Source: Chthoniobacterales bacterium (GTDB taxonomy: Bacteria; Verrucomicrobiota; Verrucomicrobiia; Chthoniobacterales; UBA10450). Taken from it: 33,059 bases of DNA. Under the pieces are notes generated by a model. The model did no database searches. It was given only the letters and a program-made list of their open reading frames with translations, and had not been told where the DNA came from. Location of the stretch: assembly GCA_025929155.1 (NCBI GenBank), contig JAICMR010000021.1:1-33059 (forward strand). The letters are read 5' to 3'. The number at the start of each line of letters is the position of its first letter. Position 1 is the first letter of the stretch. Positions 3,650 to 7,154 of this stretch are shown in pieces. Position numbers and translations under genes: made by a program.

Positions 3650-5020
3650 TCACTTTCTCGCCTTGAGCTCGAGCTTCCGGTAGAGCGTCGCCATGCTAAT
3701 GCCGAGCACGCTCGCGGCGCGTTCCCGCGAATTTTTGTACTGCGCGAGGGTCGCCTCGATATACTTGCGCTCCTGCTGTTGGATGAACTCGTCGAGCGAC
3801 TGCCCAACTGGCATTCGGTCTCTCGATTTCCGGCCCGATTCCTCTCTGTTGAAATCGACGATCTGCGGCGGAAGATCACCCGGCAAAATCAGGTCGTTGT
3901 CGCAAAGTGCGCAGGCACGTTCTATGGCATTTTCGAGCTCGCGCACATTGCCGGGATAATTGTACTGCGAGAGCAGCTCGATCGCCTGGGGATCGATTTT
4001 TTTCGCCTCGGTGCCGGTGAGCGACGCCTGTTTCTGCAGGAAATGATTCACCAGCAGCGGCACATCCTCGAGCCGCTCGCGGAGTGGCGGAATCTCCAGC
4101 GGAATGACCGCGAGCCGGTAATAAAGGTCTTCGCGGAAACTGCCTTCGCTGATTTTGTCCTGGAGCGGTTCATTCGTGGCGCCGACAACTCGGACGTTCA
4201 CCGGAATACTCTTGTTCTCGCCGACCCGCCGCACTTCGCGCTCTTGCAGAACCCGGAGCAGCTTCGTCTGCAACGACGTCGCCATCGAGTTGACCTCATC
4301 GAGGAAAATCGTCCCGAGATTCGCCTCTTCGAAGAGCCCCTGCTTGTCGGCCACCGCGCCGGTGAACGCGCCTTTTTTGTGGCCGAAAAGTTCCGATTCA
4401 AGCAAATTCTCTGGGAGCGCGCTGCAGTTGATTGCGACGAACGGATGATGCTGCCGGTTGCTGTTGAAGTGCAATCCACGGGCGACCAGTTCCTTGCCCG
4501 TCCCGCTTTCTCCCTGAATCAAAACCGTGCTGTCCGTGTCGGCGACCTTATTGATCAGGTTGTAAACCTTCTGCATTTTCTCGCTCGCCCCGACGATGTT
4601 CTCGAACTTGTATTTGTTCTTCAGCTCCTTCCGCAGATACGTGTTCTCACGCATCGTCGATTGATAATCGAGGGCGCGCTGCACCGTCATCTGGAGCTCG
4701 TCGATCTTGAACGGCTTCGGCACGTAACCGTGCGCGCCCATCTTCATCGCCTCGATCGCGGTGTCGACCGACGCATACGCGGTGATGAGAATGACGAGCG
4801 TCTGCCGATGATGCTCGCGCACGTGCCGGAGCACATCGAACCCGCTCATCGTTTCCATCTTCACGTCGGTGATCACGATCTGCGGCTCGATCTCGTCGAG
4901 TTTTTCGACCGCCTTGGCGGCGGAGCTAAAGGGAAAGACTTGGTGACCTTTGTCGCGGCAGAGAGTCACAATGACCTCCACCATTGCCGGCTCGTCGTCG
5001 ATGATGATGATTTTGGCCAT
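3650..5020 (-). CDS. NtrC-family sigma-54-dependent response regulator
   Basis: The 456-residue protein activates sigma-54 promoters when phosphorylated. The receiver domain (about 1-120) has the acidic pair D8/D9, phospho-acceptor D52 (ITDVKM), T80 and K102. The AAA+ domain (about 140-370) has Walker A GESGTGKE (170-177), the sigma-54-contacting GAFTGA loop (217-222), Walker B TIFLDEV (237-243) and the arginine-rich second half. The C-terminus has a Fis-type helix-turn-helix (RERAASVLGISMATLYRKL). All catalytic residues needed for activation are present. No sensor kinase lies next to it, so it is an orphan in this window and its signal and targets are unknown. It has no CGTTAGG copy, and its neighbours on both sides are separated by REP-like repeats, so it is probably monocistronic. 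Confidence 0.92.
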   Translation of the reverse strand: MAKIIIIDDEPAMVEVIVTLCRDKGHQVFPFSSAAKAVEKLDEIEPQIVITDVKMETMSGFDVLRHVREHHRQTLVILITAYASVDTAIEAMKMGAHGYVPKPFKIDELQMTVQRALDYQSTMRENTYLRKELKNKYKFENIVGASEKMQKVYNLINKVADTDSTVLIQGESGTGKELVARGLHFNSNRQHHPFVAINCSALPENLLESELFGHKKGAFTGAVADKQGLFEEANLGTIFLDEVNSMATSLQTKLLRVLQEREVRRVGENKSIPVNVRVVGATNEPLQDKISEGSFREDLYYRLAVIPLEIPPLRERLEDVPLLVNHFLQKQASLTGTEAKKIDPQAIELLSQYNYPGNVRELENAIERACALCDNDLILPGDLPPQIVDFNREESGRKSRDRMPVGQSLDEFIQQQERKYIEATLAQYKNSRERAASVLGISMATLYRKLELKARK

Positions 5021-5130
5021 GGTTTCGGGGCGGAGGTTATTTCACGCCTGAGAAAAGAAAAGGCAAATATGAGAATCGTGCGACCTTTCCGTTCTCAGAT
5101 GGGAGAATATCTGAGGGTGTGAATCCGATC

Positions 5131-5163
5131 ATCTTGACTTCGCTCCAATTCGCTCAGGACGAC
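5131..5163. repeat. REP-like element 2, single end
   Basis: Only one end of the inverted-repeat family is recognisable: TTGACTTCGCTCCAATTCGC followed by TCAGGACGAC. On the minus strand it reads GTCGTCCTGAGC, and its TCC TGA supplies the last serine codon and the stop codon of the DR2241-like gene. The partner end is missing or too eroded to see. Confidence 0.5.
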
Positions 5164-5825
5164 GGGAGTTCCGGTATTCGTGCCTTTACGACTTTACGCG
5201 CTTCCGCCACGAGCAGGCTGCACGCTTCCGGACAGAGCAACGGCACCACGTTTTCGCCGCGCCCGGTCTGGTCGCCCGGCGCGATGAATTTATCGAGCGG
5301 CAGGCGTAAGGAGGGCCGCGCCCTCGAGTCATCGCGCGGCCAAAGAATCGTGCGGAGACAACCCGGCTCCCCACCCTGCGAACGACAAAAGCGCCCGACA
5401 AGCTGATCGATCTCCCGATCGCAAATGCTGGCCGCGACCCGGTACATTCCGGTCTGGCGCTGTAACTTTTCCCGAAGCGGCGTCGGCCTCAGCCGATTAT
5501 CTTCCCACGCCAGTAGCGTCGGAAGACGGCCCGGATAAAAAAAATCGAGCGCCAGTTGCAAGTCGCGAAGATTCCTCAGTTCGAGTCGCCAGCCGTGGCG
5601 CAAATCCGGCGCCGTCTTCAGCGCGCGATAAACCCCCGCGTCCGTCAACCGCGCGAGCTCGATCGCATTCTCGGGCGAATAATAGCTTTCGAGTGCTTCG
5701 CAATGTTCATCTTCCCGGTGACAAAGCGTGAAGCCTTCGCTGTTCTTTCGGATCAGGATTTGTCCCATCCCGCGCGCACCGGCCGCGAGCCACTCGGCCA
5801 GCACCCGCTCAACCGGCGGGGTCAT
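5154..5825 (-). CDS. DR2241-like 4Fe-4S protein linked to CbiX chelatase
   Basis: The 223-residue protein resembles the C-terminal part of Deinococcus DR2241, where a CbiX-type chelatase domain is followed by a stabilising domain and a [4Fe-4S]-binding domain. Residues about 20-120 (ILIRKNSEGFTLCHREDE, AGVYRALKTAPDLRHGW) match the stabilising part; QTGMYRV begins the Fe-S part. Candidate ligands are C135, C147, C156 (in GCLRTILWP) and C198/C202 (CPEAC). Here the domain is a separate gene, two genes after cbiX and overlapping the GAF gene by 17 bases, so translation is probably coupled. The likely role is redox or Fe-S support of tetrapyrrole metal chelation, by inference. The stop codon lies inside a REP-like end, giving the tail PSS. 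Confidence 0.65.
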   Translation of the reverse strand: MTPPVERVLAEWLAAGARGMGQILIRKNSEGFTLCHREDEHCEALESYYSPENAIELARLTDAGVYRALKTAPDLRHGWRLELRNLRDLQLALDFFYPGRLPTLLAWEDNRLRPTPLREKLQRQTGMYRVAASICDREIDQLVGRFCRSQGGEPGCLRTILWPRDDSRARPSLRLPLDKFIAPGDQTGRGENVVPLLCPEACSLLVAEARKVVKARIPELPSS

Positions 5826-6297
5826 CTTTTTTCGGTGCGCAAATCGCCTGCGCGAGAAGCACCGCCGCGTGTTCGAGGAAATCTCGATCGTCGGCAGTGA
5901 ACGCGTTCACTTTCTCGCTCTCGACATCGATGATCCCACAGACGCGGCGTTTCTCGTCCTTCACGATCGGCACAACGATTTCGGAGCGAGTCGTCCAGAA
6001 AGTCGGGAGATAACGGGGATCTTTTTTCACGTCTGGCACTACCAGCGTTTCGGCCGATTCCACGACCGCGCCGCAGAGACCTTGCGTGACCGGAAAGCGC
6101 GGATAAGTCGGAGGTTCCTCACCTGTCCCGGCGACGATGACACACTCGCCGCGCGTCACTTTGTAAATGCCAACCCAGCGATATCCGCGTTCAGCGCGGA
6201 TCAGCTCCGCAGCTCGCCGGACGCAGAGCGGTTGGTGCGAATCGGCGAGGACAAAAGCGCCTAGGTCTTGCAACAATTTGGTCGAAGAAGTCTTCAC
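5809..6297 (-). CDS. GAF-domain protein
   Basis: This 162-residue single-domain GAF protein starts at GTG 6297. Conserved GAF features are RWVGIYKV, FPVTQGLCGAVVESAETLVVPDVKKDPRYL and SEIVVPIVKDEKRRVCGIIDVESEK. The layout is that of the free methionine-R-sulfoxide reductase (fRMsr) branch, but only one of the three cysteines of E. coli-type fRMsr is present, the one in GLCGAV; the positions before the FPVTQG loop and before SEIVV have no cysteine. Catalysis of that reaction is therefore doubtful, and a ligand- or redox-sensing role is as likely. It starts 8 bases after the cbiX stop and overlaps the next gene by 17 bases, so it is the middle gene of a tight operon with cbiX and the DR2241-like Fe-S protein. 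Confidence 0.8.
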   Translation of the reverse strand: MKTSSTKLLQDLGAFVLADSHQPLCVRRAAELIRAERGYRWVGIYKVTRGECVIVAGTGEEPPTYPRFPVTQGLCGAVVESAETLVVPDVKKDPRYLPTFWTTRSEIVVPIVKDEKRRVCGIIDVESEKVNAFTADDRDFLEHAAVLLAQAICAPKKDDPAG

Positions 6298-6305
6298 GCG
6301 AAGCG

Positions 6306-7154
6306 CTAACCAGAGACAGTCTGCGCGGAAGTCGCGAGATCAAGCGCGCACGCGTCGAAATTTTCCGCCTGGGCAATGAGAATATCCGCGAATTCCGGTG
6401 CCGTCCCGATCGCGCTCGCATAATAGAGGGCCCGTCCGTGAAGTCGATGCGGATTGGTGCGGAAAACTTCGCGCGTCCCGGCTCCGATCATTGTGTCTTC
6501 CTGTTCGATCCCGAGGAGCACTGGGATGTCCTGGTAACTGTGGAGCCCGTCCGAGATGAAGAACGGAACAATAATGACGTTTGGCGTATTCGTTAGGCGC
6601 GCCCAATCGGAGATGAGAGGCGGCTCTTCCATGTAGGCGCTTTGGACAGAGGCGTAGCGGCCGAGCGCCGAAATTTTTTGCACCTGCCGTTTCGCGGCCA
6701 CCGCGCTCTGGTCGTTCAAAGCCGTACCATGGCCGACAATCAAAAGAGTGGTTTCCGCTTCCGCCACTTCTGGCGCGATCTCGCCGGCGCGGCGCAGGAG
6801 CAGATCGGTCACGCCGGGATGATTTCCCACCGGCTCGCAATATTTCCAAACCTGGCCGTCCGGTCGCGTCGTTAGGCGTCCGTCCAGCTCGAGCTCCCGC
6901 GGAATGATCTTTTGTGTGAAATAACCTTCGCTGATGAAGTTCGGGACCACGAAAACGTCGTGGATTTCAGGATCGGAAAAGAAGAGCAGCGCGTCGTGAA
7001 AACTCGCTTCCTCTTTCCAGAAACAGCAGGCCACCTCCCGGAAAATTCCTCGCGCCCGAATCACGTTGGCCTGCGCCAGACTCGGCGCGCTTGAATCCCG
7101 GTTCACGGTCGAGCCGTGGCCGGCAATTAAAAGCGCGGAATGTTCGTACGACAT
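6306..7154 (-). CDS. cbiX: CbiX/SirB-family chelatase, two-domain
   Basis: The 282-residue protein has two tandem CbiX-type domains. Enzymes of this family insert Co2+ or Fe2+ into sirohydrochlorin (cobalamin or siroheme synthesis). The N-terminal half has AGHGST with H13, but the position expected to carry the second metal-binding histidine reads FISEGYFTQ, with no histidine. The C-terminal half has both: GHGTALND with H142 and FFISDGLHSYQDIP with H205. The active site may therefore be in the C-terminal half, or shared. The metal cannot be told from sequence; no other cobalamin or siroheme gene is nearby. It is the first gene of an operon with the GAF and DR2241-like genes. Two CGTTAGGC copies lie inside (6591, 6870). 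Confidence 0.82.
   Translation of the reverse strand: MSYEHSALLIAGHGSTVNRDSSAPSLAQANVIRARGIFREVACCFWKEEASFHDALLFFSDPEIHDVFVVPNFISEGYFTQKIIPRELELDGRLTTRPDGQVWKYCEPVGNHPGVTDLLLRRAGEIAPEVAEAETTLLIVGHGTALNDQSAVAAKRQVQKISALGRYASVQSAYMEEPPLISDWARLTNTPNVIIVPFFISDGLHSYQDIPVLLGIEQEDTMIGAGTREVFRTNPHRLHGRALYYASAIGTAPEFADILIAQAENFDACALDLATSAQTVSG

Follow-up and report, generated by a model that had tools for sequence, protein, structure and literature searches.

A CbiX–GAF–iron-sulfur protein operon as the probable ferrochelatase of a siroheme-dependent heme route in a family of Chthoniobacterales

Three adjacent genes in the window (the whole 33,059-nucleotide stretch of Chthoniobacterales DNA analysed here) probably encode the sirohydrochlorin ferrochelatase of a siroheme-dependent heme pathway that ends in ChdC. 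The unit would consist of a chelatase, CbiX, a DR2241-type iron-sulfur protein, FES, as its partner, and a GAF protein in a tuning role. The three-gene arrangement itself is confirmed as real and not a product of chance, because other members of the family to which the window belongs have the genes in the same order. The operon is a variant of a known chelatase system, and the main gain is its pathway context: the data point to heme synthesis via siroheme in the window's genome, a reading absent from the preliminary description of this DNA.

The genes are read from the minus strand in the order CbiX, GAF, FES, with a gap of 8 bases (6298-6305) between the first two. The features, in positions of the window, are:

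6306-7154, minus strand: gene for a CbiX/SirB-type class II chelatase (ORF of 282 aa, ATG start; Pfam and phmmer alignment)
5809-6297, minus strand: gene for a stand-alone GAF protein (ORF of 162 aa, GTG start; relative of type II free methionine-R-sulfoxide reductase, fRMsr, with T99 at the catalytic-Cys position)
5154-5825, minus strand: FES gene, a DR2241-type iron-sulfur protein (ORF of 223 aa, ATG start; DR2241 stabilising domain and 4Fe-4S domain)
5809-5825, minus strand: 17-base overlap of the GAF stop and the FES start (from ORF coordinates)
3650-5020, minus strand: downstream gene for an NtrC-type sigma-54 response regulator, a recurrent neighbour in the order, listed without implying membership of the unit

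The reading frames, the 8-base spacing and the 17-base overlap agree with those first described, and the overlap suggests translational coupling of GAF and FES. Pfam matches exceed the cut-offs for CbiX (PF01903, 82.8 bits; cut-off 22), GAF (PF01590, 58.8 bits; cut-off 22.4) and both FES domains (DR2241, PF18069, 63.2 bits, cut-off 26.4; Fer4_23, PF18009, 61.7 bits, cut-off 27). The top solved-structure match for CbiX and FES alike is DR2241 of Deinococcus radiodurans (2jh3), which has the same CbiX fold, DR2241 stabilising domain and 4Fe-4S domain. DR2241 is a single polypeptide, whereas the window has two genes with the GAF gene between them, as had been pointed out. Elsewhere in the window, a protein resembling the Host_attach/baeRF family is encoded at 542-1003, near a GlgX gene.

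Gene order, conservation and the presence or absence of pathway genes were computed across the window's family (f1, 83 genomes) and its order (213 genomes). FES, as detected by PF18009, occurs in 169 of the 213 order genomes and in 37 of 387 genomes sampled from the phylum, all except one weak match lying within the class. A genome contig scan yielded two named relatives of the window's contig, both Chthoniobacterales MAGs at 68-70% identity. Our locus set, drawn non-randomly from the listed matches with up to several per genus, comprises 113 loci: 110 fetched around FES, plus the window, L002 and L003. Of these, 37 are in f1 and 76 outside; L002 and L063 are one contig (60684 bases), leaving 112 distinct loci, 36 of them in f1, and this duplicate is included in the counts of 113, 37 and 102 used below.

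Within f1, 34 of 37 loci (33 of 36 distinct) have the GAF gene between CbiX and FES, and in the remaining three the contig starts inside GAF. None of the 76 loci outside f1 has it there; in 52 of these 76, CbiX stands directly upstream of FES, and seven of these 52 are fused into one protein, the only fusions among the 113 loci. In the other 24 there is no CbiX in the fetched stretch near FES, at least in L120 because the contig ends. A GAF orthologue (E below 1e-30) is present in 64 of the 83 f1 genomes, and the best match outside f1 has 42% identity and lies on a contig other than that of FES. Because of these counts inside and outside f1, the split CbiX–FES pair is the common state, the fusion a variant and GAF a family-specific insertion. 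The proposed CbiX–FES unit is thus borne out as a pair that recurs across the class, whereas co-occurrence of all three genes holds throughout f1, with GAF absent from this locus in all 76 loci outside it. Likewise, the locus was correctly called split relative to DR2241, but being split is the usual state in these bacteria.

In many relatives, L002 and L003 among them, the gene after FES is an amidohydrolase (c2, related to aminofutalosine deaminase), and its cluster covers 71 of the 113 loci. As a partner or missing enzyme it was rejected for now: in none of the loci from outside the order does it stand beside FES, and it is absent from the window, where some 130 bases (5020-5154) separate FES from the NtrC-type regulator. 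In several loci (L114, L136-L140 and L143-L145) a FES gene without CbiX adjoins a gene run that, where named (L136), encodes ATP synthase alpha, gamma, beta and epsilon.

CbiX has the hallmarks of a class II chelatase, with its domain above cut-off and a catalytic histidine pair in one half of the protein. H142 and H205, in the C-terminal half, are invariant (102/102) and match His127 and His187 of Paracoccus CbiX (4ccs), counted by hand along the phmmer alignment. Both are described as essential for in vivo sirohydrochlorin ferrochelatase function of that enzyme (PMC4063343, in the text available). The sirohydrochlorin ferrochelatase of Paracoccus pantotrophus is likewise class II, with its two essential histidines in the C-terminal half; it serves siroheme and heme d1, and the accessible portion of the same paper mentions neither a FES partner nor a GAF gene. 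In DR2241 the position equivalent to H142 is not His, whereas the window's CbiX keeps both catalytic-type histidines. In the N-terminal half, H13 is invariant (99/99), and F79 (100/100) lies in the region of the second histidine that is expected by analogy with the paired motif of the C-terminal half.

FES has both domains of the DR2241 family above the curated cut-offs and four cysteines, C147, C156, C198 and C202, as putative cluster ligands. Conservation of the Fe-S cysteines in homologues had been set as a test of the operon reading, and all four are kept in 113/113 sequences, together with R67, W79, Y97, R123, Q124, G126 and W162. A structure model of a natural CbiX–FES fusion (pLDDT 93, pTM 0.92) is closest to DR2241 (TM 0.81), followed by SirB and Paracoccus CbiX (4ccs).

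The GAF protein, modelled with a pLDDT of 89, has as its closest fold the type II fRMsr of Thermoplasma acidophilum (4mmn), to which it is also close in sequence. The two have most pocket residues in common: at what we take to be the fRMsr pocket positions, Y45 and E106 are kept, position 41 is W in 31 members and F or Y in 4, and position 126 is acidic (E or D). The catalytic cysteine of fRMsr presumably sits at position 99, in the loop that precedes the SEIVVP motif. This position aligns to Cys of 4mmn and 3ksf and is T in 22, A in 9 and N in 6 of the 37 members. An active fRMsr was rejected on this replacement in 37/37, and by its residues the protein appears to be a catalytically dead fRMsr relative. 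The protein had been credited with one of the three fRMsr cysteines; that is right for the window (C75), but does not generalize, as only 27 of the 37 members have Cys at this position, and the catalytic cysteine is lacking from all of them.

GAF would most likely tune the CbiX–FES complex, with a small ligand or the redox state as the signal. It may instead be unrelated to the chelatase and merely share its transcript, which we regard as possible but on balance doubtful: the pair outside f1 stands without GAF, but in f1 the gene has a fixed place between genes that are otherwise adjacent or fused. A GAF orthologue is also found in 64 of 68 FES-bearing f1 genomes and in none of the 15 without FES, most of which co-absence can be explained by missing contigs. 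Co-absence of CbiX, GAF and FES was accordingly set aside as evidence for a unit, since most of these MAGs are incomplete and a similar share of the genomes (11/83) lacks SUMT. The 15 FES-less f1 genomes, of which 14 keep ChdC and 13 keep PF17805, likely reflect MAG incompleteness, although they include G117 and G121 at 95-96% completeness. Of the operon as first read, then, the CbiX–FES unit, the invariant cysteines and GAF as a fixed third member in f1 stand, and sensing of redox or a ligand by GAF, or its action on the chelatase, is a conjecture.

The pathway assignment draws on the tetrapyrrole genes of f1. SUMT is present in 72 of 83 genomes, and siroheme sulfite/nitrite reductase (NIR_SIR) in 0/83. 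Uroporphyrinogen decarboxylase (HemE; counted in f1 and the control genomes) and ferrochelatase (HemH) are each found in 3/83, the same three genomes (G126, G143 and G150), where the two genes lie about 3 kb apart (L220-L222) and were possibly gained. The window's genome has a cluster of ccsB-like, hemA, hemC and SUMT–HemD fusion genes; a two-domain AhbA–AhbB-like fusion, matched by AhbA, AhbB and siroheme-decarboxylase HTH models but below the NCBI equivalog cut-offs (79.6/125 and 47.4/140 bits); and a ChdC that passes its NCBIfam equivalog cut-off (265/253 bits). ChdC, AhbC and, for the AhbAB-type siroheme decarboxylase, PF17805 were counted in 80 genomes, 44 of them in f1, hand-picked to cover both states. 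Of the 80, 70 have ChdC and 66 have PF17805, usually as a pair of domains within a single frame. Among the 44 in f1, ChdC occurs in 43 (in one, G160, only as an edge fragment below cut-off) and PF17805 exceeds its cut-off in 37. AhbC (TIGR04546) has a full-length match in 0/44; the best match scores 81 bits, against a cut-off of 650, and covers the radical-SAM core only. Terminal decarboxylation by ChdC thus agrees with an Ahb-type pathway in f1, and AhbC is the part that was not found. No substitute for AhbC or precorrin-2 dehydrogenase was recognised among the neighbours of AhbAB, ChdC, SUMT and AhbC (20 stretches, with some of their genes scanned).

Since f1 lacks HemE, HemH and the siroheme reductases yet has SUMT, CbiX/FES, the AhbAB-like protein and ChdC, we take these genes to form a joint heme pathway, and its iron-insertion step is therefore assigned to the CbiX–GAF–FES operon. 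In the mechanism that we infer, covering metal, substrate, complex, cluster and regulation, uroporphyrinogen III would be converted to precorrin-2 by the HemD-fused SUMT. Precorrin-2 would become sirohydrochlorin and then, by the CbiX/FES unit, siroheme; here CbiX would insert Fe(II) into sirohydrochlorin, with FES as its [4Fe-4S] partner subunit, part of the same polypeptide in some relatives. Siroheme in f1 would serve as an intermediate of heme synthesis and not as a sulfite/nitrite reductase cofactor. The fused AhbAB-like protein would yield didecarboxysiroheme; this would give coproheme in a step to which no enzyme is assigned, and ChdC would produce heme b.

That siroheme is made only as a cofactor of assimilatory sulfite/nitrite reductase, and that the heme link is coincidental, is unlikely. 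NIR_SIR is present in 113 of 213 order genomes, many of them with CbiX and FES, but f1 has none, and two one-contig, 0.9-Mb genomes of the order, G209 and G211, lack NIR_SIR and HemH and have no AhbC candidate, yet keep SUMT, CbiX, FES, PF17805 and ChdC. That CbiX–FES takes the place of HemH as a ferrochelatase of non-orthologous origin, acting on coproporphyrin or protoporphyrin, we consider quite improbable. HemH is found in 21 of the 213 order genomes, one below cut-off, and missing in 192, and 70 of the 80 hand-picked genomes have ChdC, a coproheme user, which would suit such a replacement. Action on coproporphyrin is disfavoured because HemE, which leads from uroporphyrinogen to coproporphyrinogen, is missing too, in 80 of 83 f1 genomes, and an AhbAB-like siroheme decarboxylase is present.

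A role as cobaltochelatase in cobalamin synthesis is very improbable. Cobaltochelatases do occur in the CbiX family, class II chelatases are for the most part not specific for one metal (PMC7689651, in the part available), and specificity cannot be read from sequence. A cobalamin role is nevertheless disfavoured by the mostly single SUMT match per genome: 66 of the 72 SUMT-bearing f1 genomes have one TIGR01469 match, against 4-6 in several members of the order, and the cobM and cobI models also pick up SUMT, so that methyltransferases of the corrin ring would probably have shown up too. Moreover, the active-site histidines lie in the C-terminal half, as in the Paracoccus siroheme CbiX, and not in the N-terminal half as in Bacillus CbiXL.

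Returning to the sirohydrochlorin ferrochelatase reading, the rest of the order and the controls show how far FES tracks the heme genes. FES is rarer where HemH exists (10/20 versus 159/193; Fisher p 0.002, with relatedness ignored). G052, G054, G095 and G206 have HemH without ChdC and PF17805 and would be classical-type on these three genes; G095 and G206 carry FES all the same. Family f8 has CbiX and NIR_SIR in 9 of 11 genomes each without FES, and FES is therefore not needed for siroheme in general. Of 14 control genomes, just two have FES, Deinobacterium chartae and Haloferax volcanii; in each of them HemE and HemH are missing and ChdC and PF17805 are present. Both also have NIR_SIR, and therefore a second use of siroheme. 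Sulfolobus acidocaldarius shows the same profile, with HemE and HemH missing and CbiX, ChdC and PF17805 present, yet it has no FES; this and the NIR_SIR results in Deinobacterium and Haloferax speak against a strict FES link.

A bolder and rather unlikely reading is that FES carries out or enables the missing acetate removal, from siroheme to coproheme without AhbC and with or without CbiX and GAF, which would be an undescribed route in which FES and ChdC stand in for AhbC and AhbD. It is suggested by G037 and G041, in which an AhbC-type match is accompanied by PF17805 and by a second radical-SAM gene next to it, and both FES and ChdC are missing, a profile that looks like an anaerobic-type version. 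It is also suggested by G211, which keeps FES about 15 kb from CbiX and has no AhbC candidate. We keep it only as a bold reading because of several misfits and because Haloferax has both FES and AhbC. Eight of the 80 hand-picked genomes, all outside f1, have full-length AhbC-type matches (392-465 bits, all under NCBI's cut-off of 650); in several of these eight (L223-L230) a second radical-SAM gene lies beside the AhbC/NirJ-type match, which may serve heme d1 or heme.

The route proposed for f1, with CbiX–GAF–FES at the iron-insertion step, has a close counterpart in Haloferax volcanii, which likewise has no HemE or HemH and has ChdC, PF17805 and the FES family. Haloferax differs in being an archaeon with NIR_SIR and with AhbC and AhbD (PMC8305020, accessible text), whereas f1 has no AhbC among 44 genomes. 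Its CbiX2 is predicted in the same text to be the ferrochelatase of the siroheme-based heme route, and in the available part of another study a process of unknown kind supplying coproheme to the aerobic ChdC is not excluded (PMC5746218).

As far as the accessible text of PMC4607532 goes, hemD, hemE, hemY and hemH are missing from the Xiphinematobacter genome, with the intactness of its heme pathway left open; hemD, hemY and hemH are unannotated in its relative Chthoniobacter flavus; and diverged hemE homologues are suggested in outgroups. Heme synthesis via siroheme, with the operon as the ferrochelatase step, fits this reported gap and could help to explain heme synthesis in relatives without the usual heme genes. 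In the portions available, one paper from 2021 describes the AHB pathway as specific to archaea (PMC8529089) and another includes sulfate-reducing bacteria (PMC3942049). A bacterial version that ends in the peroxide-dependent ChdC without AhbC would widen that pathway, with one enzyme still to find. The purpose of Fe-S centres in chelatases is described as unclear (PMC7689651, in part), and an invariant Fe-S partner together with an apparently dead fRMsr-like GAF protein may offer a handle on it. The open-access literature, as far as it was accessible, yielded no description of a CbiX–GAF–FES operon or of a siroheme-based heme route in Verrucomicrobia.

A second CbiX gene (mostly 538-633 aa; 294 in G068) occurs at L205 and L207 and in G008-G010, G015-G018, G067, G068 and G071. 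The genomes that have it carry 3-6 SUMT-model matches, and this second gene is therefore probably a cobalamin-type chelatase.
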